The notes below the pieces were generated by a model. It had not been told where the DNA came from. It saw only the letters and a list, made by a program, of their open reading frames with translations, and did no database searches. Below are positions 4,850 to 24,584 of a DNA stretch of 32,325 nucleotides, one piece after another. Positions within the stretch are counted from its first letter, which is position 1. Every line of letters begins with the position of its first letter. This DNA comes from a virus. The DNA lies in IMG/VR virus record IMGVR_UViG_3300045910_000023, positions 1 through 32,325 of that record; one strand, given 5' to 3'. The translations under genes were made by a program, and so were the position numbers.

Positions 4850-6244
4850 TTGCTGTCCGTCTGGTCTCGATTCCGCAGCAAAGCGGCACCCGTGCCCGCG
4901 CCGCGCGCGGTCGTGCCGACGTCGCACGGCGGCGGTTGGTGGCCGTTGATCCGCGAATCGTACGCGGGCGCATGGCAACAGAACATCGAGATCACCGCGC
5001 AAACGGTACTCACGTACGCCGCGCTGTACGCGTGCGTCACGTTGATCTCGTCGGACATCGGCAAGCTACGGATCAAGCTGATCGCGCGCGACGCCGACGG
5101 GATCTGGACCGAGACCGACAACCCGGCATGGTCGCCCGTGCTTCGCAAACCGAATCACTACCAGAACCGGATCAAGTTTCTGGAACAGTGGATCGTCTCA
5201 AAGCTGATTCACGGCAACACGTACGTGCTCAAGATTCGCGACGCGCGCCGCGTCGTCGTCGCGCTGTACGTACTCGACCCGACGCGCGTTCGGCCGCTGG
5301 TCGCCGTCAACGGTGACGTGTACTACCAGCTGTCGACCGACCAGATCGCGGGCGTCGATACCGACGTGACCGTACCCGCCAGCGAAATCATTCACGACGT
5401 ATACGTACCGCTGTTTCATCCGTTGTGCGGCGTGCCGCCGTTGACGGCGTGCGGTCTCGCCGCATTGAACGGAATCAAGATTCAGGATTTCTCGACGCGC
5501 TTTTTTAGCAACGGCACCATGCCGGGCGGGATCCTCACCGCGCCGGGCCGGATCACCGAAGAACAAGCGGCGCGGGTAAAAGCCAATTTCGAACTCGGGC
5601 ACAGCGGATCGAACGTCGGCCGGGTCGCGTTGCTGGGCGACGGGCTGAAGTACGAGAACACGCGCGTAAGCGCACTCGATTCGCAGCTGATCGAACAGCT
5701 GAAGTACTCCGCCGAACAGGTGTGCACGGCGTACCACGTGCCCGCGTACATGGTCGGCGTTGGCCCGCCGCCGAGTAACACCAACGTCGAGGCGTTGGCG
5801 TTGCAGTACTACACCCAATGTTTGCAGACGTTGATCGAGTGCGTCGAACTCGGGTTAGACGAGGGTCTGTCGCTGCCCGCCGACGTCGGCGTCGAACTCG
5901 ATCTCAATGATCTGTTGCGCATGGATACCGCGTCACGCGTCACGGCGGCGCGCGACGCCGTCGGCGCGGCGGTCATGTCGATCAACGAGGCGCGGCGGCA
6001 GTACTTCGGTCTCGGCCCGGTCAAAGGCGGCGACCAACCGTTCCTGCAACAGCAGTACTTCAGCCTAGAGGCGTTGGCGGCAGCGACGCCGCCGACCAGC
6101 GGCGCGCCGCCGGAACCGCCGCGCAATCCCGACGACGACGAACCCGACGACGAGAACGACGACGACGACGACGACCCGCCCGAGGACGTCGAACGGGCGT
6201 TGACGGTGGCGATCACAAAGGAACTCGACCAATGGCACGCCTAA
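4850..6244 (+). CDS. Portal protein, HK97 family
   Basis: 464 aa. A dodecameric channel at the unique head vertex through which DNA enters and leaves, and the docking site for TerL and the connectors. LYACVTLISSDIGKL near the N-terminus, WIVSKLIHGNTYVLK, VPLFHPLCGVPPLTACG, the GLKYENTRVSALDSQLIEQLKYS segment and AYHVPAYMVG are characteristic of HK97-type portals. The TTG at 4850 is preferred because GGAGG (4837-4841) sits 8 nt upstream; the in-frame ATG at 4757 would add 31 residues without a ribosome-binding site. The C-terminus has a run of Asp/Glu/Pro (NPDDDEPDDENDDDDDDPPED) before the final helix. It overlaps the next gene by 13 nt. Confidence 0.93.
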   Translation: MLSVWSRFRSKAAPVPAPRAVVPTSHGGGWWPLIRESYAGAWQQNIEITAQTVLTYAALYACVTLISSDIGKLRIKLIARDADGIWTETDNPAWSPVLRKPNHYQNRIKFLEQWIVSKLIHGNTYVLKIRDARRVVVALYVLDPTRVRPLVAVNGDVYYQLSTDQIAGVDTDVTVPASEIIHDVYVPLFHPLCGVPPLTACGLAALNGIKIQDFSTRFFSNGTMPGGILTAPGRITEEQAARVKANFELGHSGSNVGRVALLGDGLKYENTRVSALDSQLIEQLKYSAEQVCTAYHVPAYMVGVGPPPSNTNVEALALQYYTQCLQTLIECVELGLDEGLSLPADVGVELDLNDLLRMDTASRVTAARDAVGAAVMSINEARRQYFGLGPVKGGDQPFLQQQYFSLEALAAATPPTSGAPPEPPRNPDDDEPDDENDDDDDDPPEDVERALTVAITKELDQWHA

Positions 6245-6726
6245 CCGTCGAGACCGCAACCGCCGTCGTCAAGGCGATTGGCCCGGCATTGCGCGCGGCG
6301 TTGACCGCCGTCGTTGCACCGCTTGCCGCGCGCGTCGCCGCGCTGGAAGAGCGCCCGGCCGAACCCGGCCCGCCCGGCCCGCCCGGCCATGACGGCGCGG
6401 TTGGGCAAACCGGCCCGGCCGGGCGCGATGGCGTCGACGGTCTCGGGTTCGCCGACCTCACCGCGAAGTACGACGGCGCGCGCCGGTTGACGTTGGTCGT
6501 ACGCAACGGCGAACGGGTCAAAGAATTTCCGTTCGATCTGCCGATCCCGCTGTTCGTCGGCGTGTACGACGCCGCCGCCAGCTACAGCAAGGGCGACGTC
6601 GTCTCGCATGCCGGGTCGGCATGGGTCGCCGTACGCGACACGTCGAACGAGAAACCCGACGAACACGCCGACGACCGTGCATGGCGGTTGTGTGTCAAGC
6701 GCGGGCGCGACGGGAGGGTCGGCTAA
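6232..6726 (+). CDS. Collagen-like protein with C-terminal carbohydrate-binding-like module
   Basis: 164 aa. An N-terminal amphipathic helix or coiled coil (VKAIGPALRAAL...VAALEERP, residues 13-42) leads into eight Gly-X-Y triplets at 46-69 (GPPGPPGHDGAVGQTGPAG region), a trimerising collagen-like stalk. The end, VGVYDAAASYSKGDVV..GSAWVAVRDTSNEKP, resembles small carbohydrate-binding modules of the CBM5/12 type seen on phage and chitinase proteins. It lies between portal and connector genes, overlapping the portal by 13 nt, so it is probably a virion component such as a head fibre or decoration; this role is inferred. Its product would be a trimer with the sugar-binding-like module at the tip. 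Confidence 0.7.
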   Translation: MARLTVETATAVVKAIGPALRAALTAVVAPLAARVAALEERPAEPGPPGPPGHDGAVGQTGPAGRDGVDGLGFADLTAKYDGARRLTLVVRNGERVKEFPFDLPIPLFVGVYDAAASYSKGDVVSHAGSAWVAVRDTSNEKPDEHADDRAWRLCVKRGRDGRVG

Positions 6727-7040
6727 TGCCGTACGTCGACCTCGACGTCGCCCGCGACCATACCCGCACGTTGGGCGTACCCGACGACGACGATCTGTTG
6801 CTGAAGATTGCACAGGCCGAGGCGTTCGTGTGGCAACACCTGAAGCGCGACGGCGATCCGCCATGGGACGTGAACAGCGACCCGACGACGGATCGGGAGT
6901 TCGCAATCGTGCTCGCCGCGACGCTGATCGTTCTACAGGATCTCTACCGCTTTCGCGGCGACGACGCACCGTCGCCGTTGCTGTTTAACCCGCGCGTACT
7001 CGACATGCTGTCGATGCTCCGCGATCCGACGGTGGCGTGA
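6726..7040 (+). CDS. Head-tail connector (gp6-like adaptor)
   Basis: 104 aa, mostly helical: YVDLDVARDHTRTLGVPDDDDLLLKIAQAEAFVWQHL resembles the N-terminal helices of HK97 gp6 / SPP1 gp15-type adaptors, which form a ring under the portal. The ATG at 6726 is preceded by GGGAGGG at 6712-6718 and overlaps the previous stop (TAATG). Length (100-110 aa) and position directly after the portal module match the family. Confidence 0.75.
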   Translation: MPYVDLDVARDHTRTLGVPDDDDLLLKIAQAEAFVWQHLKRDGDPPWDVNSDPTTDREFAIVLAATLIVLQDLYRFRGDDAPSPLLFNPRVLDMLSMLRDPTVA

Positions 7041-7043
7041 CCC

Positions 7044-7412
7044 ATGGCACCGGCAGCAACGGGCACGCGTAATCGGTTGGTCACGATCCAACACGGCACG
7101 ACGTCGACGGGCGACTCGGGCGGGCCGGTCGACACGTTCGTCGACACGGTGCCGCCGATTTGGATGGCGCGCGAGATCGCGTCGCGCGGCGGCGAGGTCT
7201 GGCAGGCCGATGCAACGCAGGTTGCCGCGCGTGCCGAACACCGCTGGTCGTTGCCCTATCTGCCCGACATGGATCCCGACGTCGTCGACGTCCCACGGTT
7301 GCGGCGACTCGTGTACCAAGGTCGCACGTACGACATTGTCGACGCGCACAAGACGCGCAGCGACGAGATCACGCTAACGACCCGGGTCAAGACCGATGCC
7401 GCCCAAGTTTGA
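7044..7412 (+). CDS. Head closure protein (SPP1 gp16-like head-tail joining)
   Basis: 122 aa, predominantly beta: NRLVTIQHGTTSTGDSGGPVDTF near the start and RRLVYQGRTYDIVDAHKTRSDEITLTTRV at the end are the pattern of the phage head-tail joining family (small beta barrel that plugs the portal-adaptor channel). It starts 4 nt after the adaptor stop and overlaps the next gene by 17 nt, keeping the usual connector order. Confidence 0.78.
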   Translation: MAPAATGTRNRLVTIQHGTTSTGDSGGPVDTFVDTVPPIWMAREIASRGGEVWQADATQVAARAEHRWSLPYLPDMDPDVVDVPRLRRLVYQGRTYDIVDAHKTRSDEITLTTRVKTDAAQV

Positions 7413-7797
7413 ACTGGTCGGCGTGCGGGAACTTGACGCCGCGATCACGCGTGCGGCCGACGCGTTGACGCCGCGCGTGCAGGTTGACGCGTTGACCGAC
7501 GCGGCGGAAGCGATCCGCGCGCGCGCCGCGCAGCTGGCACCGAACCGGCCCGGCGGCGTCGATCTCCGCGACGAGATCGTCGTCGAACCCGCGTCGCGCG
7601 GCGAGGTCGGCAGCGGCGACACGGGCGTCGTGATCGGCCCGAGTCAACGCGCGTTTTACGGATCGTTTCAGGAGTTCGGCACCGAACATCACCGCGCCCA
7701 ACCCTTTATGCGCCCGGCGTTCGACGAGAACGTCGACGGCGCGCTGTCGACCATCGGCGACGAGTTCTGGTCGGCGATTGCGAGGGAGGCGAAATGA
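7396..7797 (+). CDS. HK97 gp10-like tail/neck protein
   Basis: 133 aa. LDAAITRAADALTPRVQVDALTDAAEAIRARAAQLAP followed by a turn and beta segment (TGVVIGPSQRAFYGSFQEFGTEHHRAQPFMRPAFDE) matches the HK97 gp10 family, in which the FQEFGT..H..QPFMRPA region is the strongest signature. These proteins cap the tail at the head-proximal end. It overlaps its neighbours on both sides (17 nt before, 4 nt after), as expected in a coupled connector operon. Confidence 0.85.
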   Translation: MPPKFELVGVRELDAAITRAADALTPRVQVDALTDAAEAIRARAAQLAPNRPGGVDLRDEIVVEPASRGEVGSGDTGVVIGPSQRAFYGSFQEFGTEHHRAQPFMRPAFDENVDGALSTIGDEFWSAIAREAK

Positions 7798-11641: not shown

Positions 11642-13845
11642 TCCTCACCGTCTATCTCGGGCTGGGCGGGATCTTCAAAGATCGGATCATCGAGGAGGCG
11701 TACGTTGTCTCCGCATGGGATCTGCACGAACTGTACGGCACGGTCGCGCGCGATTTCATGCACCAGAAAAATCAAGGGATCTACACGAACGCGCCGACGC
11801 GCGGGATCGCGAACGGATTGCCCGAGGGAGGGATCGGATCGCGGTTCACCGGTACGCAGTACGTGCGCGTGCCGCACGACGGCGCGGGGTACCTCTGGCC
11901 GGGCGACGAACACGCGCGCACGCTGAGTCTTGAGGCGGGCGCAATGGACGTGATCGCGTTCATTCGCACCAGTACCAACGACGCGACGCTACGCGCGATC
12001 ATCCAAAAGCACGACGTCGGCAGCGGCACCAACGGGTATCACCTTGCGTTGGTCGACGGCCAGATCGAGTTTTTCTTACGCGTCGCGGGCGTGACGATCT
12101 TTAGCTTTCGACGCGGCGCGGTCGCCGACAACGCGTGGCATATCGTCCAAGGGTTCTACCGGCCCGACACGGGCGCGCGGATCTACATCGATGGCGCGCT
12201 GTCGGGCGCGACCGTCGCGACCAGCGGCGTTGAACCCGCGACGACGACGGGCGACTGTCGGATCGGCATGTTCAACGACGGCGCGGGCGGGTTCATTGGC
12301 GATATCAATTACGCCGTGCTCGGGCGCAACGGCAGCGCGACGATCTCGGCGTCGTTGCAGGCGACGCGCGCATGGTCGGAGATCACCGAACACGTACGCA
12401 TCGAATCGATCCAATGGACCGGCGGCGCGCCGGGCGTGACGCACCGCGATCACACCGCCGGGATCGGTACGTTCTCGTTCGTGTTGGAGAACCGCCCGGT
12501 AATCGGCGGCGTCGAGGTACCCGGGTACTACACCATCGGGCACGCCAACCAGCGCGCCGGGTTCGATCTCAATATCCCGGTTATGGTCGTCGCGACCTCC
12601 GGTGCCGTGTCGCGGATCGTGCACCGTGGTCGACTCGCCGTCGCCAAACCCGAAACCGGGTTCGAAGGATCGTCGCGCGTCTATTGCATGTCGGAGGATT
12701 GGCTAGCCGTCGCCGCGCGTACCGACGTCACGCGCGCCGCCGTGTTGACCAACGTCGTATCGTCCGACGCATGGTCGTCGCTGGTCGACATGGCGGATTA
12801 CCCGCCGGTCGCGGTGTCGGTGCAGACGGGCGCGGAAACGTTTCCGTTCTGTTTTGACCGCGTCGATCAATCGATGCTCACCGAGATCGCGAAGATCGAT
12901 CAGTCGGAGGGAGGTCAGACGTTCATCGCCGCCGACGCCACCACGGGCGGCGTGTTGACGTTCCAGAATCGGAACCATCGACAGACCGCCGTCGATCCCG
13001 ATATCACGTTGACCGAAGAAACCATGCACGCCCTAGAGATCGAAATGGGCGACGCGCGGTTGATCAATTCGGTTGAACAGACGATCACGCCGCGTCGTCT
13101 CGGCGCGTCGTCGACGTCGGTCCTGTACGCGCAAACCAAGGCGACGCCGATTCCCGCGAACGGCGTGATCTTGATCGAAGAAACGTATCAGGATCCGGCG
13201 CAGTCGCGCAGTCAGATCGGCGCGGCGAACGTGCAACCGATGGTCGCGGGCACCGATTACAACCTGACCACGGCCGACGGCGGCGGGTCGAACATCAATA
13301 GTTCGTGCACGGTCGAACTCGTCGCGGGCGGTTCCGGGTTCCGGTTGCGCGTCACGAACACCAACGCGGCGCAAGGTTGGTTTACGTTCCAGCTGCGCGG
13401 GCAAATCCTGTACACCGATAACCCGCTCACCGAGATCACCGAGGACAACGCGCTCGTGCGGCGGCATGGGTTGCACCGCACGTCGGAGTCGTACCCCTAC
13501 CTTGATCGCATGACGACGGCGCGGTACTTCGCCGACTGGTTGATCGACATTTTCGGATTGCCGATTGCGATCCCGTCGCGCGTGACCGTGCGACCCGATC
13601 CCGACGACGCGCAAGAGCAAATCCTGATCACGTTGGGCGTCGGGAATATGTTTTCGCTGTTCGAAGAACTGGCGGCGATCAACCCGGATACCCGGTACTG
13701 GTCGACCAACTATCGTTTCTCCCTCACGAACCAAACACATTTAGAAGCGCAATTCGGCGTGATCCCGTCGTTTACCGCTGGAAACGATCTCGGAGTGTGG
13801 GACGACGCCAATGCGCTATGGGACACGGCAACATGGGCACCGTAA
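11638..13845 (+). CDS. Tail hub/baseplate protein with inserted LamG-like domain
   Basis: 735 aa starting with GTG at 11638 in a GTGA overlap. After a short start (MILTVYLGLGG), residues about 70-235 form a concanavalin/LamG-like beta sandwich: FTGTQYVRVP, MDVIAFIRTSTNDATLRAIIQKHDVG, YHLALVDGQIEFFL, WHIVQGFYRPDTGARIYIDG, DCRIGMFN. Such domains bind glycans or proteins. The rest (EHVRIESIQWTGG, AGIGTFSFVLENRP, RIVHRGRLAVAKPE, VYCMSEDWLAVAAR) resembles siphovirus tail hub proteins, and the gene follows the tape measure, where distal-tail and hub genes sit. It probably forms the tail tip and contacts the host surface. Separate Dit and Tal genes are not apparent, so this protein may do both jobs. 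Confidence 0.72.
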   Translation: MILTVYLGLGGIFKDRIIEEAYVVSAWDLHELYGTVARDFMHQKNQGIYTNAPTRGIANGLPEGGIGSRFTGTQYVRVPHDGAGYLWPGDEHARTLSLEAGAMDVIAFIRTSTNDATLRAIIQKHDVGSGTNGYHLALVDGQIEFFLRVAGVTIFSFRRGAVADNAWHIVQGFYRPDTGARIYIDGALSGATVATSGVEPATTTGDCRIGMFNDGAGGFIGDINYAVLGRNGSATISASLQATRAWSEITEHVRIESIQWTGGAPGVTHRDHTAGIGTFSFVLENRPVIGGVEVPGYYTIGHANQRAGFDLNIPVMVVATSGAVSRIVHRGRLAVAKPETGFEGSSRVYCMSEDWLAVAARTDVTRAAVLTNVVSSDAWSSLVDMADYPPVAVSVQTGAETFPFCFDRVDQSMLTEIAKIDQSEGGQTFIAADATTGGVLTFQNRNHRQTAVDPDITLTEETMHALEIEMGDARLINSVEQTITPRRLGASSTSVLYAQTKATPIPANGVILIEETYQDPAQSRSQIGAANVQPMVAGTDYNLTTADGGGSNINSSCTVELVAGGSGFRLRVTNTNAAQGWFTFQLRGQILYTDNPLTEITEDNALVRRHGLHRTSESYPYLDRMTTARYFADWLIDIFGLPIAIPSRVTVRPDPDDAQEQILITLGVGNMFSLFEELAAINPDTRYWSTNYRFSLTNQTHLEAQFGVIPSFTAGNDLGVWDDANALWDTATWAP

Positions 13846-15539: not shown

Positions 15540-16034
15540 TCAAGACGACGACGGTTTATCCGCCGCCAGTGCCGCGCGCGTGTCGCGCGACGTTCGTTGA
15601 CGCGTTGACCGGCGCGCGCTGCCAGTGCGCCCGCGCTTGTCGGCGTCGAGTTCGTGTAGCTTCAGCGTGCGGAACGTGCCGACGTCGTCGTCGTTGACGT
15701 CGCCCGCCCAACGTGCCGGGTCCAACCCGGACGATTCGAATAACCGCCAAAGCACGTACACCGTCGTTTCCCCCAAACCCTTGATCGCCGCGAACGTGTA
15801 CGGCGTCGTTCGTTTGTACAGGTCGTGCACGTTCTTCGCGCCGACCTCCCGTGCCGCCTGACTGAGTACCCGCGCCGCCTTGGTGTGCACGACGCCTAGC
15901 TTGGTGGCAAGTTCGGTCGTCGTCCAGCTTTGCGACCCGATCTGTAACGGCGCGTGTTGGCGGTCGCTGATCCGATTGATCACTCCCGACCCGATGAACG
16001 CCCGCATTGTATCTAGTTGGGCTTGTTTTGGCAT
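15540..16034 (-). CDS. Putative helix-turn-helix regulator
   Basis: 164 aa. SWTTTELATKLGVVHTKAARVLSQAAREVG is a helix-turn-helix (second helix in KAARVLSQAA). Next comes TPYTFAAIKGLGETTVYVLWRLFESSGLDPARWAG, a possible helix-hairpin-helix-like segment, and then a basic low-complexity tail. The ATG at 16034 follows a promoter-like region with inverted repeats (ATACAG 16067-16072 / CTGTAT 16082-16087) and GTTCCGG elements. It is divergent from the integrase and first in a two-gene unit, the place where a temperate phage often keeps its immunity or integration regulator. The gene family is not recognised. Confidence 0.68.
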   Translation of the reverse strand: MPKQAQLDTMRAFIGSGVINRISDRQHAPLQIGSQSWTTTELATKLGVVHTKAARVLSQAAREVGAKNVHDLYKRTTPYTFAAIKGLGETTVYVLWRLFESSGLDPARWAGDVNDDDVGTFRTLKLHELDADKRGRTGSARRSTRQRTSRDTRAALAADKPSSS

Positions 16035-16170
16035 ATGCGGAACCTTGTAACACGTTCCGGCCCGGTATACAGCCCTAAACGCTGTATCTGGACAGTTCCG
16101 GCATGTTCTGACAGACAATTACCGTGCAGCTGGCCCGCCAGCCCGGCCGTAGTGGTCGGCAAGGCGGGTC

Positions 16171-16186
16171 ACTAGTGATCACTAGT
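16171..16186. promoter_or_regulatory. Perfect 16-bp palindrome (operator or recombination-site candidate)
   Basis: ACTAGTGATCACTAGT reads identically on both strands. The CTAG tetramer is rare elsewhere in this window but clusters in this intergenic region (also near 16183, 16436 and 16450). A palindrome of this size suits a dimeric repressor or an integration factor. Confidence 0.5.
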
Positions 16187-16269
16187 TACAGCGCGGCGGA
16201 ACAGGTGATCCCGAGGGTTTGCGCGGAAAGTACGGGAATGACCGAACGGACCAATGTTTATCGAGGCCG

Positions 16270-16309
16270 CTTGCGGTTAGCGTTGGTCGTTCGCGGTCGT
16301 TTCCGGTCG
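16270..16309. repeat. 10-bp tandem direct repeat array A
   Basis: Four consecutive 10-mers: CTTGCGGTTA, GCGTTGGTCG, TTCGCGGTCG, TTTCCGGTCG (consensus about NTTSCGGTCG). The last is identical to a unit of the array at 20381-20420. The exact 10-bp period places every copy on the same face of DNA, as in arrays bound by Xis/Cox-type or other polymerising proteins. Confidence 0.55.
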
Positions 16310-16512
16310 GTCGTTTGGGAATTGGGAGTGTACAAGAGATCCGGTTCCCGACGGTAGCACGGTCGGCCGTTTCGCGCCAAATCATTAGGGTTTCAGCACG
16401 TTCCGTCGTCTGTCCGTTCCGGCGAGGTCGCTGCACTAGCCGGAAAAACTAGTTACCGGGTTATACTGTTTCAGACACGTATACCGGTTTCATCTGAAAG
16501 GACAACGACGCC

Positions 16513-17922
16513 ATGACGACGCCCAACGCCAACGTAACGCCGTTCGAACGCCGCCGCGCCGCCGAGACCGCCCGCGCCGACCGCTACGCCGACCCGACCT
16601 CGACGGCACCAGCGGCCCGCCAGCGGGGCGCCCGGGCCGACGTGCCCGAGACTGCCGCCGACCCGGAGATCGCCGACGTGGCGACCCGCCAGCCCGCCCG
16701 GCGCGCCGCCCGCGCCCGGGTCGCCGTTCCGACGCCGCACAAGTACCGGCGGGTCATGGGAACGGGTCACCTGTTCCGCCAGACCGGCCCGGGCAAATCG
16801 AAAAATTGGTCGATGCAGTTTTACGACGCCGACGGCGTCAAGCGGATCAAGACCAGCGGCACGCGCGACAAGACCGAAGCGCGGCAGCGGTTGAACGAGA
16901 TCCTTGCCGCCATCGGGCGCGGCGAGAACATCGATCACATTGCCGCGCCGCGTTCGAAGGTCTGGACGTTCGACGACGCCGCCGCGCTGTATCTGGAACG
17001 ACTCGCCGCCGACGGTTGCGGCACGTACAAACCGGCGCAGCTGATCGAGAACCATTTGCGACCGGCGTTCGGCGGGCTGGCGAAGTTCTCCGACGTGACC
17101 GCCGACCGGATCCGCAAGTTCGAAGCGGCGAAACTCGCCGAGGGTTTGTCGCGCGCGACCGTCAACGGGTACCTTGCCGCGCTGCGCCGCATGTTCCGGT
17201 TGTCGGCCCGTCTCGGCAAGATCGGCGCGGTGCCCGAGTTCGAATTGCCCGACCCGAAGAACGCGCGGAAAGGGTTTTTCAAGCGCGACCAATTCGATCA
17301 GGTGACGCCGCACTTACCCGAGGATCTACGGCTGGCGGTCGTGTTCGCGTACTTGCTCGGCTGGCGGTTGGCGTCGGAGGTTTGCATTCTGACGTGGGAA
17401 ACGCACGTCGACCGCGAAACCAAAACCGTGCGGCTGGAACCGGGCGAGGCGAAGAACGACGAGGGACGACTGATCGCGTACGGTCAGTTCCCCGCGCTGG
17501 CCGACGTGATCGACGCGGCATGGCGGGCGAAGGGCGAACGGGAAGCGCGCGGCGTGCGGTCGCCGCTGGTGTTCCCGCAGGCGAACGGCCGACCGATGGT
17601 GCAGGCGCCGTGCCCGTCGCAACCAAAGGGCGCGTTACAGAAATCGGTACGCGACCGGTTCAACGCTGCCTGTAAGGCGGCGGGCGTCGAGGGTCGCCGC
17701 CCGCACGACATGCGGCGCAGCGCGGCGCGTAATCTAGTGACCATCGCGGGCATTCCCGAAAATCTCGCCATGAAGATCACCGGGCACCTAACGCGCGACG
17801 TGTTCGACCGGTACCACATCGTCAACCCGGCCGACGTCGCCGCCGCACTCGGCCAGCTGGCGACGACGGACGCGGGCGCGCCGGTCACGCTGGCGACGCC
17901 CGAGGCAACGCCCGTCGTATAA
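16513..17922 (+). CDS. int: Tyrosine integrase
   Basis: 469 aa. Site-specific recombinase that joins attP with attB. Catalytic residues are visible: Arg285 (GWRLASEV), Lys314 (GEAKND), His398-x-x-Arg401 (PHDMRRSAARN), His425 (GHLTRDV) and nucleophile Tyr434 (FDRYHIV). A core-binding SAM-like domain covers about 150-240, and an AP2-like arm-binding segment (GTGHLFRQTGPG...SMQFYDADGVKRIKTSGTRDKTEARQRLNEI) covers about 83-130. Residues 1-80 are an unusual disordered Ala/Arg-rich extension; an in-frame ATG at 16756 would remove it, but the ATG at 16513 has AAAGGA about 11 nt upstream. A strong terminator follows at 17941. Confidence 0.95.
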   Translation: MTTPNANVTPFERRRAAETARADRYADPTSTAPAARQRGARADVPETAADPEIADVATRQPARRAARARVAVPTPHKYRRVMGTGHLFRQTGPGKSKNWSMQFYDADGVKRIKTSGTRDKTEARQRLNEILAAIGRGENIDHIAAPRSKVWTFDDAAALYLERLAADGCGTYKPAQLIENHLRPAFGGLAKFSDVTADRIRKFEAAKLAEGLSRATVNGYLAALRRMFRLSARLGKIGAVPEFELPDPKNARKGFFKRDQFDQVTPHLPEDLRLAVVFAYLLGWRLASEVCILTWETHVDRETKTVRLEPGEAKNDEGRLIAYGQFPALADVIDAAWRAKGEREARGVRSPLVFPQANGRPMVQAPCPSQPKGALQKSVRDRFNAACKAAGVEGRRPHDMRRSAARNLVTIAGIPENLAMKITGHLTRDVFDRYHIVNPADVAAALGQLATTDAGAPVTLATPEATPVV

Positions 17923-17940
17923 TCGCGACGGCGTCGACAT

Positions 17941-17999
17941 TCGCCCGGTCGGTCTGGCATCTTGGGCAGCTGCTAGAACCGGCCGGGCGATTTTTGTTT
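17941..17999 (+). terminator. Rho-independent terminator of the integrase
   Basis: TCGCCCGGTCGGT (17941-17953) pairs with ACCGGCCGGGCGA (17978-17990), 13 bp with one G-U pair, followed directly by TTTTTGTTT. The 24-nt loop contains the palindrome GCAGCTGC (17967-17974). Confidence 0.88.
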
Positions 18000-18052
18000 G
18001 TCCTACTGATCAACCCGCCGCCCGTCGGCCGTCGCGCACTCTGCGCGGCATC

Positions 18053-19462
18053 ATGGCCGAACTCACCAAAGAACAGGCATACGACCAGATCGCCGACGTC
18101 GTGCACGCGTACGACGGACAAACCCCCGTACCACCCGACCCGCCCGCCGACGTCGTTGTCGCCGACGGCGCGTCGCTACAGGCCGCACTGAACGCGAACG
18201 CGTCGGCCCGGTCGTTTCTCGTCATGGGCCGTCGACAGGAACGGGTACGCGTCGACCGGCCCGGCGTCGCGATTGCGTTCGACGAGACCGACGACGACGC
18301 GGGAATCGACGGCGTCGACAACCAACCGACCATCGGGATCTATGCGTCCGACGTGACCGTACGACGCGGCACGCTGCGCCCGGGCGGCAGCGCGGATCGC
18401 TGCACCATGGTCGAGATCGGCACGTACGACGCGACCGACCCGACCGCGCAACCGCGCAACGTACTCGTTGAGGATCTGATCGTCGACGGGTTGTACCGCA
18501 CGAAACACGCGTACGCGATTCACGGCGGGTGCCGCGTCAACCGTACGACCGTGATCGGCGTCGGTCTCGACGGCGTCGAGACGCACGGCGTTTGGATCCT
18601 GAACTCGCCCGGCGATATCACCGTCGAGAACAGCCATATTGAGGCGGCAGCAATCGGCGTGTTCTGCGGCGGCGACACGTTCAGGATCGGGCAAGTCCCG
18701 GTCGGGATCCTCATTCGCAACAACACGATCTATAAGCCGGACGAGTGGCGATCCAAACCGTACGTCGTAAAGTGCGGCGTCGAGTTCAAGGGCGGGCGAC
18801 AGATCACCATCGAACACAACGAGATCGACGGCAATTGGGCCGACGGTCAAGACGGCGACGTCATGAACCTGAAAGCGGAATCGCAGTACGGCGCCGACCC
18901 GTTCGTCGATCTGCGCGACGTGATCGTACGCCTCAATATCATCCGTCGGACGTCGGGCGGGATCTCGATTGGCGGGCCGATGAACTACCCGCATCAAGGC
19001 GTGCACAACATCACGATTGACCGCAACACGTGCACTATCGACAAAAACATCGTTGGTGATCGCAATCAGGCGGGCAGCGGGCGCGGGTTGCAGATCCAAG
19101 GACCAATCCCCAACCTGCACGTACTCGGCAACGTGTTTGACGGCAACGGTTCCAGCTGGTCGTACACGACCGGCGCGCAGCTGACCGGCGCGCGGTTCGA
19201 AGGGAACACCGCGAATCACGGATCGTACGGGTTCACGGGCGACAACGTCTCGCCGAAATCATCGGCGGTCGATTGCCTGTCGCGGTACTTCCCGGGCGCG
19301 GTGTGGATGAACAACACGATCCGCGTTCAGGAGGGAAAGACGTACACGTATCCGCCGGGTACAACCATCGTGCCCGCGACGCGCGGCGCACGCCGTCGGC
19401 ACCGCGAGATCACGCGCCGCGACGTCGCGAATTTTTTGCGCGAAAACCGCTGGTACTTCTGA
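18053..19462 (+). CDS. Right-handed parallel beta-helix protein (tailspike/depolymerase-like)
   Basis: 469 aa. After a short N-terminal helix and a proline linker (DGQTPVPPDPPADVVV), the sequence is built of repeating short strands with Asn/Asp/Gly turns: NVLVEDLIVDG, VNRTTVIGVG, DITVENSHIE, VGILIRNNTI, QITIEHNEIDGNW, VIVRLNIIRRTSGGISIGG, NITIDRNTCTI, LHVLGNVFDGNG, ARFEGNTANHG. This is the pectate-lyase-type solenoid used by phage tailspikes and polysaccharide lyases. No signal peptide is visible. The C-terminus (GARRRHREITRRDVANFLRENRW) is basic and may attach it to another protein. It lies between integrase and repressor, outside the structural module, so it is either a displaced tailspike or a lysogenic-conversion gene; substrate and role are unknown. 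Confidence 0.8.
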   Translation: MAELTKEQAYDQIADVVHAYDGQTPVPPDPPADVVVADGASLQAALNANASARSFLVMGRRQERVRVDRPGVAIAFDETDDDAGIDGVDNQPTIGIYASDVTVRRGTLRPGGSADRCTMVEIGTYDATDPTAQPRNVLVEDLIVDGLYRTKHAYAIHGGCRVNRTTVIGVGLDGVETHGVWILNSPGDITVENSHIEAAAIGVFCGGDTFRIGQVPVGILIRNNTIYKPDEWRSKPYVVKCGVEFKGGRQITIEHNEIDGNWADGQDGDVMNLKAESQYGADPFVDLRDVIVRLNIIRRTSGGISIGGPMNYPHQGVHNITIDRNTCTIDKNIVGDRNQAGSGRGLQIQGPIPNLHVLGNVFDGNGSSWSYTTGAQLTGARFEGNTANHGSYGFTGDNVSPKSSAVDCLSRYFPGAVWMNNTIRVQEGKTYTYPPGTTIVPATRGARRRHREITRRDVANFLRENRWYF

Positions 19463-19625
19463 CAGGCGAGGGGGATTGACGAGCGCGCCGGTTTGCCGTC
19501 CAATAGCCCGGTTCCGACGACCGTTTTGTAACGCGGGTCGTCAGAGCCGGATCCCGGCGGCGGCGTGTTCGTCCGGCGTGTACGGGTTCCCCACGATCAA
19601 TCGACCGACTCGGAGGGTTGCCCGT
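19463..19625. other. Intergenic region with inverted repeat
   Basis: No convincing gene. GACGACC (19516-19522) and GGTCGTC (19536-19542) can pair around a 13-nt T-containing loop and may weakly end the beta-helix transcript. The stretch ends in GGAGGG (19612-19617), which serves the next gene. Confidence 0.35.
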
Positions 19626-19979
19626 ATGCGCGAAGCGTTGTCGCCCGCGCTAGCTGCGCGGTTGGCCGTTTGGCCGTCGTCTCTCCGCCGTACGACTCTG
19701 ATCATGCTGCGCGCGGTCGTCGTGTCGTGCGGTCGCACGCCGCCCGACGCCGTGCGCGGGTTTACTCCGATGGTCGCGGCGTACCTCGATCATTTGCCTT
19801 TGCGGTTGCGGCACCGCTGGATCGACGCGCTGGCCGAGACGGCACGACGTCGAGACGCGGCCGACCAACCGGATCGGCGCGTTCGCGGATCACTTCTATC
19901 AGCATTGCCGCCAGCGACCGCCGCAACGGTGCGCCAGCTGCGCGCCCGAGTGCCAGCCATTCGCGGTCGTCGTCTGTAA
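19626..19979 (+). CDS. Small hypothetical protein, antisense to the repressor 3' end
   Basis: 117 aa. A strong ribosome-binding site (GGAGGG, 8 nt before ATG 19626) and a helical N-terminal region (ALSPALAARLAVWPSSLRRTTLIMLRAVVVS, PMVAAYLDHLPLRLRHRWIDALAETARRR) support it. After about residue 78 third positions stop favouring G/C and the sequence turns Arg/Pro/Ala-rich, where it runs antisense to the repressor gene for 218 bp. The function is unknown. Either the true gene once ended near 19860 and has read on into its neighbour, or the tail is tolerated. Confidence 0.5.
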   Translation: MREALSPALAARLAVWPSSLRRTTLIMLRAVVVSCGRTPPDAVRGFTPMVAAYLDHLPLRLRHRWIDALAETARRRDAADQPDRRVRGSLLSALPPATAATVRQLRARVPAIRGRRL

Positions 19980-20292
19980 GCGCGCCGTTGCTGTCGGCGG
20001 CGGGCGACGCGGTGTACTCGCGGAGTTCATCGTACGGCGTCACGACGCCGCGCAATAGCTTCGCGGGCGGGCACCCGATAGCGTCGGCCAGCCGTTTGAT
20101 CGTTCCGGGTTCGGGCACGTGCGCCGACCGTTCCCAGCTAGAGATCGGCGTCGGTCGACGCATACCGAGGCGTTCGGCGAGATCCTCTTGCGTCAATCCG
20201 GCGTCGAGTCTCGCTTGCCGCAGCGCGGCACCGAACACCATGCGTTGCGGCGGGTTCACTACATCGGGTTTGGGCGTGCGTCGGTTCGTCAT
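19762..20292 (-). CDS. XRE-family (Cro/CI-type) repressor
   Basis: 176 aa. The helix-turn-helix domain covers about residues 18-82: FGAALRQARLDAGLTQEDLAERLGMRRPTPISSWERSAHVPEPGTIKRLADAIGC. The rest is helical (DREWLALGRAAGAPLRRSLAAMLIEVIRERAD) and then low-complexity, without a LexA-type Ser/Lys protease. The ATG at 20292 is used; a Met 15 codons upstream is poorer. The gene is divergent from the early operon, and an 8-bp-arm inverted repeat lies just upstream, the expected arrangement for a lysogeny repressor controlling both directions. Its last 73 codons overlap a + strand gene. Confidence 0.85.
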   Translation of the reverse strand: MTNRRTPKPDVVNPPQRMVFGAALRQARLDAGLTQEDLAERLGMRRPTPISSWERSAHVPEPGTIKRLADAIGCPPAKLLRGVVTPYDELREYTASPAADSNGALTDDDREWLALGRAAGAPLRRSLAAMLIEVIRERADPVGRPRLDVVPSRPARRSSGAATAKANDRGTPRPSE

Positions 20293-20325
20293 GCTGGGGA
20301 TAGTCCAATTCACGTATTGACAGGG

Positions 20326-20346
20326 ATTCGCCGCCATCCGGCGAAT
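20326..20346. promoter_or_regulatory. Candidate repressor operator (inverted repeat)
   Basis: ATTCGCCG (20326-20333) and CGGCGAAT (20339-20346) form a perfect inverted repeat with a 5-nt centre, 34 bp upstream of the XRE repressor start. It suits a dimeric XRE repressor, and could also fold in the repressor mRNA leader. Confidence 0.5.
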
Positions 20347-20380
20347 TTCTGGCGCTCAGCATAAACCCAAGTGACGGCAC

Positions 20381-20420
20381 ATTGCGAGCGTTTCCGGTCG
20401 TTTCTGATCGCTTGCGGTCG
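20381..20420. repeat. 10-bp tandem direct repeat array B
   Basis: Consecutive 10-mers ATTGCGAGCG, TTTCCGGTCG, TTTCTGATCG, CTTGCGGTCG, with TTTCCGGTCG shared exactly with array A near the integrase. The array ends 17 bp before the -35 box of the early promoter, so a bound protein could control that promoter. Confidence 0.6.
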
Positions 20421-20437: not shown

Positions 20438-20466
20438 TTGACACTCGCTTTTGACGGGCGTATACC
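20438..20466 (+). promoter_or_regulatory. Early promoter with near-consensus -35/-10, likely leaderless transcript
   Basis: TTGACA (20438-20443), a 17-nt spacer and TATACC (20461-20466). The ATG of the first early gene begins 8 nt after the -10 box, so transcription should start at or within a few bases of the start codon, leaving no room for a ribosome-binding site. Confidence 0.75.
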
Positions 20467-20474
20467 GTGCCGTC

Positions 20475-20789
20475 ATGCGTTCGAAAAATCACGACGACGA
20501 CGACGCCGCGGCGTACAAGAGTCTCGACGACGCGCCGCTGATCCTCCTACTCCCTGAGATCGCGCGGATCTACCGGCTGGGCGCGACGACGATCCGCCGC
20601 CGGGTGTTGGCGGGCCAGTTCCGCCCGAAACCGTACGACGTGCGTCCGTACCGCTGGCGCAAGGTCGACGTTGCCGCCGATCTCCGCGACCGCGCCGGGC
20701 AGGATCACACCGCGCGCCCGCGCCCGCGTCGCCGCCGCCGCGCGCCCGTGAACGGCGCGCCCGCCGCCGTCGCTGCCGACCAGTCGTAA
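20475..20789 (+). CDS. Excisionase-like helix-turn-helix protein (Xis/Cox candidate)
   Basis: 104 aa. LLLPEIARIYRLGATTIRRRVLAGQFRPKPYDVRPYRWRKVDVAADL (residues 24-70) is a winged HTH of the MerR/excisionase type: 'l...eiA...glg..tIrr.v..G.l.P.r....yrw...dv...l'. It is followed by a strongly basic tail (RPRPRRRRRAP) that could contact DNA. It is the first gene of the early operon, directly after the promoter at 20438-20466. The same 10-bp repeat array occurs before its promoter and before the integrase, which supports a role in directing excision and autoregulation; this link is inferred. Confidence 0.7.
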   Translation: MRSKNHDDDDAAAYKSLDDAPLILLLPEIARIYRLGATTIRRRVLAGQFRPKPYDVRPYRWRKVDVAADLRDRAGQDHTARPRPRRRRRAPVNGAPAAVAADQS

Positions 20790-20818: not shown

Positions 20819-21637
20819 ATGCCCGAGGAAAGTACCGCGCTGGCGACAGCTACGCCCGCGCCGTTGCTGAACGGTGCCGCACTCGCCAAAGCGTTCGATC
20901 ACTACCTAGAGATCCAAGCGGCAATCGACCGCGCGCGACCCGACGCGATCATGACCATCGGCGACCGGAAGTTCCGGCGCAAACCGTATTGGCGCGCCGT
21001 GCGGATCGCGTTTCGGTTGTCGGTCGAACCGGTCGAAGAACTCCGCGACGTGTTCGGCGTGTTGCCCAACGGTGCCGAGAACGTCGTGTATCGCGTGACG
21101 TACCGCGCCGCTGGTGCCGATGGTCTCGCCGTCACGGGCGACGGCGCGTGTTCGTCGATTGAGAAGTTCGCCAAAGGCGGCATGTCGCAGGCGACCGAAC
21201 ACAACGTCAGATCGCACGCGCATACCCGCGCGTTCAACCGGGCGATCTCCAATCTGGTTGGGTTCGGCGAGGTCTCAGCCGAAGAAATCGACGGCGACGA
21301 ACACGACCCGCGCCCGGGCGGATCGCCGCGCCGCGCCGCGCCCGCGCGCCCGGCGGTCGCGGCACCGACCGGCGCGCCCGTGATCACCGACGGCCAGCGT
21401 AAACGGCTGTTCGCCATTGCCCGGGAACACGGGCGCGATCACGCCGCCATCAAAGCGATCCTTGCAGCGCACGGGATCGATCACACCGACCAGATCCCGC
21501 GCGACAAGTACGACCTGATCATCGCGGCACTGTCGGCCGTCGACGAAGAACGCGCCGCGCATGCCGACGCCGCCGCCGAACGCGAACCCGGATCCGACGA
21601 CGGCGACGCGCCGGTCGACGGCGAGGTCGTGTCGTGA
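20819..21637 (+). CDS. Putative ssDNA-annealing/recombination protein
   Basis: 272 aa. A perfect AGGAGGG (20805-20811) lies 7 nt before the ATG. Conserved-looking stretches are FRRKPYWRAVRIAFRLSVEPVEE (52-74), a beta region YRVTYRAAGADG, GDGACSSIEK (108-116) and ATEHNVRSHAHTRAFNRAISNLVGFGEVSAEE (126-156). The last recalls the motif of phage recombination proteins ending in a helical domain, and the C-terminal ITDGQRKRLFAIAREHG...IIAAL is found in many phage annealing proteins. Pairing with the RecB-like nuclease next door fits a two-component annealing system. The family cannot be named with certainty. Confidence 0.6.
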   Translation: MPEESTALATATPAPLLNGAALAKAFDHYLEIQAAIDRARPDAIMTIGDRKFRRKPYWRAVRIAFRLSVEPVEELRDVFGVLPNGAENVVYRVTYRAAGADGLAVTGDGACSSIEKFAKGGMSQATEHNVRSHAHTRAFNRAISNLVGFGEVSAEEIDGDEHDPRPGGSPRRAAPARPAVAAPTGAPVITDGQRKRLFAIAREHGRDHAAIKAILAAHGIDHTDQIPRDKYDLIIAALSAVDEERAAHADAAAEREPGSDDGDAPVDGEVVS

Positions 21638-22287
21638 GTACGGCACGCGTCCGACGCACCGAACGCCGAACGCTGGTGCAGCTGTCGCCGCGCCCGGCGC
21701 AGCTGCCCGCGTCGTTCACGCCGCCCGGGTTGACGTTCGACGAACCGACGCACCGGTACGAACTCGACGGGCGCGACCTGATCAGCGTGACGCGGGCGAT
21801 TGATGCCGCGTCGTTGATCGACCATGCGTTTTTCACCGACGACGCGCGCGCACTCGGCACGCGCGTACATGCCGCGATTGCACTTGGCGCGTTCGACGGC
21901 GACGACGAGACCGCGCCGTACCTGAACGCGTACCGGGCGTTTCTCGCCGAGACCGCATACGAGGTCGTCGCCCGCGAAGAACGGCTAGGCGACGCGTCGC
22001 TAGGCGTCGCGGGTACCTGCGATCTGCGCGGGCGGTTCCCCGACGCGTACCCCGACATGGTCGATCTCGTCGATCTCAAGACGGGCGAGATCCCGCCGTG
22101 GGTCGGGTACCAGACCGCCGGATACGTGCGGCTGTTCCCGCCGGTCGTGCGCGTGCGCACGCGCCGCTGGGTCGTGCAGCTGCGCGGCGACGGCGGGTAC
22201 CGGTTGCGCCCGCTGGTGAACCCGAACGATGCGTCGGTGTTTCTGGCGGCGGTCACGATTGCGCGCGCGAAAGCCGGGCGGTTGTGA
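21634..22287 (+). CDS. PD-(D/E)XK (RecB/Cas4-like) exonuclease
   Basis: 217 aa, GTG start overlapping the previous stop (GTGA). Motifs in order: LGTRVHAAIALG (His79), SLGVAGTCDLRG (Asp130), DMVDLVDLKTGEIP (Asp147-x-Lys149) and GYQTAGYVRLF (Gln160, Tyr164). This is the RecB-nuclease signature (H, D, D-x-K, Q-x-x-x-Y) of phage 5'-3' exonucleases and Cas4 proteins. There is no cysteine cluster, so no Fe-S site of the Cas4 kind. It would resect DNA ends for the annealing protein encoded upstream. Confidence 0.82.
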   Translation: MSTARVRRTERRTLVQLSPRPAQLPASFTPPGLTFDEPTHRYELDGRDLISVTRAIDAASLIDHAFFTDDARALGTRVHAAIALGAFDGDDETAPYLNAYRAFLAETAYEVVAREERLGDASLGVAGTCDLRGRFPDAYPDMVDLVDLKTGEIPPWVGYQTAGYVRLFPPVVRVRTRRWVVQLRGDGGYRLRPLVNPNDASVFLAAVTIARAKAGRL

Positions 22288-23813: not shown

Positions 23814-24584
23814 ATGGCACGTGGTCGCATGTTGTCAAAATCGTGGTCGACGTCGAAGAAACGCGGTCGGCTGTTCGAAGTACTCGGACAGCCGACGACC
23901 GACCCGGCGTCGCTGGCCGAGTTCGTGTCGGGCCTGTTCCCGCTGTTGCTGGCGCACGCCGACGATCACGGCCGGTTACCGGGCGACGCGTTGACGATCA
24001 AATTGCTCGTCGATCCAGTGAACGCGCGACCCGAAAGCGATTTCGAACGGGCGTTAGATGTTCTGCGCGTCGTCAACCTGATCCGTCGGTACGACTCTCC
24101 GGTCGATGGTCGACCGGTGATCGTGATTGTGGCGTTCGACGCGCACCAAACTTTGCGGTACCGCGCGCGGTCGCAATTCGCTGATGAGTATGAGAAACCC
24201 CGCGCCAAACGATCAATTTCGGAAAATTCCCGAAAAGTTCAGGAAGTTTCGGGAAATTCCCGCCTAAGAGAAGTGAAGGTACGTACAGCTAACAGTACCA
24301 ACCAGCTACGGATCGAAGGATCCGAGATCCGATCAACACCAGTCAGAGAAAAGCGCGCTTCGCGCGTTCTTTCTGACAGGGGTACCCGATCAGAAGATCC
24401 GACGCGCAGCGTTCGAACGATTGCGCGGTTGATCCTCGCGGAGAGGGTCACCAGCAACGACGACGGCGATCTGGTCGAACTCGTGAAACGCCGCGCCGCC
24501 AAGTTCGGAATCCCCTACACGACCGCAACGGTCACGCGGGCGATCAAATCCGCCCGCGCGCAGCAACGAAAGGCGGCGCACTGA
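23814..24584 (+). CDS. Replication initiation protein (phage DnaD-like/replisome organiser)
   Basis: 256 aa. The N-terminus ARGRMLSKSWSTSKKRGRLFEVLG and LFPLLLAHADDHGRLPGDALTIKLLVDPVNARPESDFERALDVLRVVNLIRRY form the winged-helix domain of a widespread phage replication family ('l.phaDd.GRl.GDp..ik..v.P......edie.aL..L...gLI..Y'), ending in the signature FDAHQTLRYR. Residues about 135-150 (ISENSRKVQEVSGNSR) are encoded by an AT-rich repeat. The C-terminal part (TIARLILAERVTSNDDGDLVELVKRRA) is helical. It should bind the origin and load the host helicase. Its gene contains the best origin candidate, as in lambda O. Confidence 0.75.
   Translation: MARGRMLSKSWSTSKKRGRLFEVLGQPTTDPASLAEFVSGLFPLLLAHADDHGRLPGDALTIKLLVDPVNARPESDFERALDVLRVVNLIRRYDSPVDGRPVIVIVAFDAHQTLRYRARSQFADEYEKPRAKRSISENSRKVQEVSGNSRLREVKVRTANSTNQLRIEGSEIRSTPVREKRASRVLSDRGTRSEDPTRSVRTIARLILAERVTSNDDGDLVELVKRRAAKFGIPYTTATVTRAIKSARAQQRKAAH
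24217..24262. repeat. Iteron-like repeats inside the replication gene, candidate origin
   Basis: TTTCGGAAAATTCCCG (24217-24232) and TTTCGGGAAATTCCCG (24247-24262) are direct repeats 30 bp apart, differing at one base. Between them lies a diverged half copy (GTTCAGGAAG). Each copy is itself nearly palindromic (CGGGAA-A-TTCCCG). The surrounding region is the most AT-rich in the early operon, which suits an origin. Confidence 0.55.
24342..24377. other. Imperfect hairpin in the replication gene
   Basis: GTCAGA (24342-24347) pairs with TCTGAC (24372-24377), and GCGCG pairs with CGCGC around a CTT loop, with an imperfect middle. It lies 80 bp downstream of the iteron-like repeats and may be part of the origin structure or an mRNA element. 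Confidence 0.35.

Follow-up and report, generated by a model that had tools for sequence, protein, structure and literature searches.

The question raised by this locus is whether a single phage protein acts at two places in the genome, one upstream of the integrase gene and one in front of an excisionase-like gene, by way of the same phased repeat. The window, that is, the whole stretch of DNA analysed here (32,325 bases), is a complete IMG/VR virus record, from a temperate phage. Its left part carries terminase, capsid, portal and tail genes, and the early genes, which include an exonuclease and a replication initiator, run rightward from 20475; no tRNA was found in the window. The genes that matter for the question are the following:

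16513..17922, plus strand: tyrosine integrase (int; Phage_integrase, E=1.3e-9; phrog_1, E=5e-35)
19762..20292, minus strand: Cro/CI-type repressor (HTH_31, E=1.9e-12; phage repressor PHROGs), divergent from the excisionase-like gene
20475..20789, plus strand: excisionase/RDF-like winged-HTH protein of 104 aa with a basic tail (xis; phrog_66, HTH_17, profile, model), candidate binder of both arrays
21634..22287, plus strand: phage exonuclease (phrog_298, E=5e-13), downstream of xis in the same early direction

The excisionase-like gene is the first in the early direction, opposite the CI-type repressor, and a cognate tyrosine integrase (16513-17922) is present in the same element. Eleven intergenic gaps of at least 60 bp occur in the window, and the regions preceding int and xis are two of these. 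Between the integrase and repressor genes lies a gene for a right-handed beta-helix protein (18053-19462; PF13229, E=4e-10) without a PHROG match, in a position where lysogeny-associated cargo is often found. Another viral contig (L002, 5.9 kb) encodes a terminase with 100% identity to the one in the window, and is the same phage, or a near-identical one, assembled elsewhere.

Two phased arrays of one motif

The repeats form two blocks:

16270..16309, plus strand: array A, four 10-bp direct repeats of the NTTSYGRTCG family, approximately 200 bp upstream of the integrase start
20381..20420, plus strand: array B, four 10-bp direct repeats with the motif and orientation of array A, between the repressor and the excisionase-like gene

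A previous reading of this DNA, made from the sequence only, had placed four back-to-back 10-mers in each of these two intervals, and the units lie exactly there. In order, they are CTTGCGGTTA, GCGTTGGTCG, TTCGCGGTCG and TTTCCGGTCG in array A, and ATTGCGAGCG, TTTCCGGTCG, TTTCTGATCG and CTTGCGGTCG in array B; the single unit said to be identical in both arrays is thus TTTCCGGTCG, the fourth of A and the second of B. The consensus proposed at that time, NTTSCGGTCG, captured a motif that is indeed shared, but NTTSYGRTCG fits the eight units better. When the two arrays are taken together, G6 is invariant (8/8), while T2, T8, C9 and G10 are each found in 7/8 units and T3 in 6/8. Array A is weaker than array B, with two poor units (the one at 16270, which ends in TA, and GCGTTGGTCG at 16280). 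Tandem direct repeats spaced by one helical turn are present near the integrase gene (array A, at period 10 only), and a second array of the same motif is found beside an early promoter candidate (array B).

When the 32 kb were scanned on both strands with a matrix built from array B alone, the top site other than B was array A, and a matrix built from A likewise ranked B first. These reciprocal scores were reached by none of 100 dinucleotide shuffles in either direction, and by 2/400 and 0/400 sequences under a 4th-order Markov model. Array scores calculated at periods 7 to 14 collapsed everywhere except at 10. In a blind pair search of the window, A and B emerged as the best reciprocal pair (score 25.2), although the finding of such a pair anywhere in the window has by itself a p of only ~0.03 (122/4071 simulations). 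This value from the unrestricted search speaks for an explanation by chance or composition, in which GGTCG is common in a G+C-rich genome and the two clusters arose via mutation or local duplication; three-unit runs of the motif are also found in unrelated viral contigs, six of which were inspected in detail, with none at int or xis. Since the biological question is whether the regions preceding int and xis share a phased array, we limited a second test to these two intergenic regions (478 and 182 bp) and scored the best joint eight-unit match. The joint score of A and B (92.2) was reached by 0/29,789 dinucleotide shuffles (mean 55.6, sd 4.1, maximum 77.3), and the match works at period 10 only. 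In addition, the 9-mers common to both regions are all within the arrays or touching them, with the exception of one promoter-like 9-mer (CGTATACCG), and the units differ at the variable positions yet keep the core, unlike the product of a recent duplication. We thus regard chance or composition as a very improbable source of the arrays.

Equally phased runs at many coding positions, for which the earlier reading had suggested a motif scan, were not seen in the window; it holds one further strong block with a 10-bp phase, at 24218-24257, but of another motif. Both arrays are confirmed as real and shared.

The block at 24218-24257 (TTCGGAAAAT TCCCGAAAAG TTCAGGAAGT TTCGGGAAAT) is part of a gene whose product matches proteins for phage replication initiation (phrog_1408, E=5e-7), and likely represents the iterons of an origin embedded in the initiator gene, an arrangement like that of lambda O.

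The integrase-side region and the excisionase-like protein

The region that contains array A has three elements of note:

16035..16512, strand not assigned: 478-bp intergenic region, putative attP, the largest gap in the window, with array A, an ACTAGT palindrome and GTTCCG repeats
16171..16186, strand not assigned: perfect palindrome ACTAGTGATCACTAGT, unique, a candidate core or operator
16054..16059, plus strand: GTTCCG motif, also at 16095, 16400 and 16416, and on the minus strand at 16038 and 16197

We infer that array A lies inside attP because it is located in the longest gap, next to int, and is accompanied by flanking GTTCCG copies and by the ACTAGTGATCACTAGT palindrome. All three ACTAGT sites of the window fall within 16035-16512, the third copy being at 16448. 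As for GTTCCG, 6 of its 45 copies are concentrated in this 1.5% of the window (uncorrected P 3e-5), and their presence on both sides of array A is at most suggestive of Int arm-type sites. Neither an attB match nor a tRNA fragment was found in the putative attP region, and an Rfam search of it returned nothing.

The gene that follows array B had been described as excisionase-like, and this description is borne out by the match of its product (P0001) to phrog_66, 'excisionase and transcriptional regulator' (E=1.2e-6), and by the matches of a profile (A4) in which P0001 is aligned with eight xis-like proteins from related phages. Among solved structures, this profile gave significant matches to BldC (6amk, 5e-4), RdfS (8dgl, 1.5e-3) and Pukovnik Xis (4j2n, 6e-3), which occupy direct repeats head-to-tail or as tandem oligomers; the comparison is partly circular since most of the partners were picked with phrog_66. 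The hit of P0001 to Pfam HTH_17 (E=0.008) was below the cut-off, and P0001 alone gave no meaningful match to the PDB. Single-sequence structure prediction was poor, and the AlphaFold model, which has an HTH core, was of low confidence (pLDDT 61, pTM 0.34); it places helices at residues 26-33, 37-45 and 68-75, with short strands. A fold search with this low-confidence model gave no significant match (best E 0.79), and in the non-significant list BldC chains came best, with RdfS and Pukovnik Xis lower down. The earlier reading had drawn its comparison with the Cox/Xis-type proteins of P2-like phages; the closest models are phage 186 Apl, RdfS, Pukovnik Xis and BldC, and not P2 Cox specifically.

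The similarity to BldC raises the alternative that a host protein, such as a BldC-like regulator, occupies the arrays and would couple integration and early transcription to the state of the host. Indeed, BldC is a host regulator that binds tandem repeats (PMC5859096), and its fold is the closest to P0001, albeit in a non-significant match. Nevertheless, the phage encodes its own protein of the BldC class right beside array B, and nothing links a host protein to the motif, which makes a host binder the least probable of the explanations considered here, with hardly any likelihood.

The early switch and a proposed mechanism

Two promoter-like sites flank or overlap array B:

20438..20466, plus strand: early promoter candidate TTGACA-17-TATACC; no other site in the window, on either strand, reaches 10/12 matches
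20358..20387, minus strand: weak promoter-like site, the best one for the divergent repressor (TCGCAA-18-TATGCT, 7/12 matches)

The predicted transcript start of the early promoter candidate coincides with the ATG of xis, so that the message would be leaderless; its -10 element, TATACC, was missed by a scanner that demands T at the last -10 position. TATACC occurs only four times in the window, and GTATACC-type words are found at 16062-16070, 16479-16487 and 20459-20467, where TATACC points into each of three genes. In the two intergenic regions, TATACC is likely the -10 element of promoters.

An array located between face-to-face lytic and lysogenic promoters, a strict P2-like Cox/Apl trait, is absent here: the repressor gene and xis point away from each other, with the early promoter candidate downstream of array B. 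The earlier reading had predicted that the protein binds its own promoter, but array B is not located on that promoter: the array is beside the early promoter candidate and ends 17 bp upstream of its -35 (20438). Its first unit overlaps the -35 of the weak repressor promoter-like site. From these two positions, off its own promoter and on that of the repressor, the first target of a filament on array B may be the repressor promoter. An inverted repeat (CAGGGATTCGCCG / CGGCGAATTTCTG) is found at 20321-20351, between the repressor start and array B, and is a candidate repressor operator.

The location of both arrays would also fit operators that co-regulate the integrase and early promoters and have no role in excision, recognized by the CI-type repressor (19762-20292) or by a further phage regulator, for instance the 15540-16034 product: array B falls in the gap that separates the repressor from xis, array A in the one that separates a leftward gene from int, and these are regulatory positions. 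Cro/CI-type HTH dimers, however, normally bind inverted repeats, whereas the units here are four same-direction copies at exactly 10 bp. The 20321-20351 inverted repeat and the ACTAGT palindrome are better operator candidates, and the 15540-16034 product has no significant family match in Pfam or PHROGs. The explanation of the arrays as operators is thus unlikely, although it is the strongest of the competing ones.

Considerably more probable, and the explanation that we favour, is that a single recombination directionality factor uses both arrays as binding platforms, with the 20475-20789 product as the candidate binder at each. According to this proposal, monomers would bind one per 10-bp unit, head-to-tail, along a single helix face. 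At array A, four protomers would coat 40 bp, bend the DNA that separates the integrase sites in attP, and promote excision. On array B, a filament of this protein would occupy the stretch that separates the repressor gene from the early operon headed by xis; the divergent repressor promoter would be repressed first, at a low level of the protein, and at higher concentration the filament would spread by 1-3 turns toward the -35 at 20438 and limit its own transcription. This order, with the repressor shut at a low level and xis at a higher one, is the simplest scheme because Apl spreads into neighbouring DNA. Both the bending at A and the sign of regulation at B are presumed. A more tentative variant, which we regard as possible but doubtful, is that the array B filament serves as an anti-repressor, shutting the repressor promoter through unit 1 on its -35 and sparing or helping the early promoter 17 bp downstream. 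If this were true, excision and lytic commitment would be set by one cooperative filament on two equal four-site platforms. Overall, the sequence-only reading is partly supported: pattern and precedent speak well for it, and protein binding and the attP assignment are its presumptive elements.

Relatives and known systems

Alignment of the terminase identified true relatives, at 57-64% identity. The int-xis module of these phages is mosaic, with phrog_66 or integrase genes present in some of them only, and int and xis are either distant from those of the window, absent, or adjacent to each other. The comparison with related phages that had been suggested did not reveal a second case, as no relative examined keeps both arrays, and a blind pair search of 13 other related records gave no comparable xis/int array pair. 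Integrase relatives in bacterial genomes amounted to 80 loci, and at 77 loci with distant integrases the window motif was not found near int; the top 'blocks' at bacterial integrase loci were masked N runs and were rejected. No relatives were found for P0001 in viral contigs and phages, for int alone in viral contigs, or in the P0004 and exonuclease scans, and an int alignment search yielded 3 distant loci without arrays. An exact motif scan of viral contigs gave 21 matches, many of them near-copies of one another; in the six inspected in detail, the motif was away from int and xis. Since the module is mosaic in relatives, none of which has a paired A/B-like array, and distant integrases lack the motif, conservation in the sequences compared neither supports nor refutes the paired-array reading.

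Repeats of other kinds were observed in two records. In the related phage G035 (L239), a long duplicated intergenic-looking module (AAAAACTCGC...TTGCTAGCAAATT..GCGACATTGGTA) occupies 6004-7790, with copies ~1.7 kb apart, near a leftward integrase. In another, G037 (L241), approximately eight TTTGCYAT-like repeats of 10-11 bp follow one another at ~13506-13620 and resemble, by eye, the 186 Apl motif.

Apl of phage 186 is both an excisionase and a switch regulator, and spreads from its sites into neighbouring DNA (PMC7498355). Its sites are annotated at attP and between pR and pL in the 186 record (NC_001317), which served as a positive control: for a matrix trained on attP, the strongest further site was the pR-pL array, and the Apl pair came first in the blind pair search (23.7 versus a null maximum of 19.2 in 12 simulations). 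On this same measure the window reaches 25.2, and thus carries the same kind of signal as the experimentally known 186. The two systems have in common a single small HTH protein, encoded by the first of the early genes, and tandem repeats at two places, which in 186 are 10-11 bp direct repeats, 5 at attP and 7 at the early switch. They differ in that the 186 switch promoters are convergent, with the Apl array between them, whereas in the window the repressor and xis genes diverge and array B precedes the early promoter candidate. Moreover, the 186 arrays are opposite in orientation while A and B have the same one, and the motifs are unrelated (TTTGCCA-like in 186, GRTCG in the window).

RdfS of ICEMlSym (PDB 8dgl), also matched by profile A4, binds 40 bp as a tetramer at attP and a site upstream of its own gene, which it represses (PMC11963761). 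The window is similar, the RdfS attP site being a 40-bp, four-protomer site just upstream of intS, with the second one before its own gene. Unlike the phage protein, RdfS belongs to an ICE and its promoter is driven by the activator FseA; no single base is critical in the RdfS site (PMC11963761), and the window repeats are plain by contrast. Mycobacteriophage Pukovnik Xis (PDB 4j2n), a profile A4 match of remote sequence similarity, is cited in PMC7498355 as binding tandem repeats one turn apart. Streptomyces BldC (PDB 6amk, 6ama), the best profile match and the best, non-significant, fold match, binds direct repeats head-to-tail, through an AT-rich element and a C-G pair; in contrast to the system proposed here, it is a host developmental regulator with the consensus AATTXXXXC and no role in recombination (PMC5859096). 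In Pf4, the excisionase gene xisF4 is divergent from the phage repressor gene, as in the window, and XisF4 and the repressor repress each other, although Pf4 is a filamentous phage (PMC7379572).

The layout of one RDF with phased repeats at both att and the early switch is therefore already known from 186 Apl and ICEMlSym RdfS, and the present locus differs in its divergent promoters, its motif and the shared strand orientation of its two arrays. It would add an uncultivated phage lineage to the P2-like coliphages and ICEs as the setting of a clean, sequence-visible dual excisionase and switch regulator. Its two four-unit arrays of one motif offer a convenient system in which to follow how a filament-forming protein is shared out between excision and the lysis-lysogeny switch, and the paired-array search, having recovered the known arrays of 186, could be applied to further phages.
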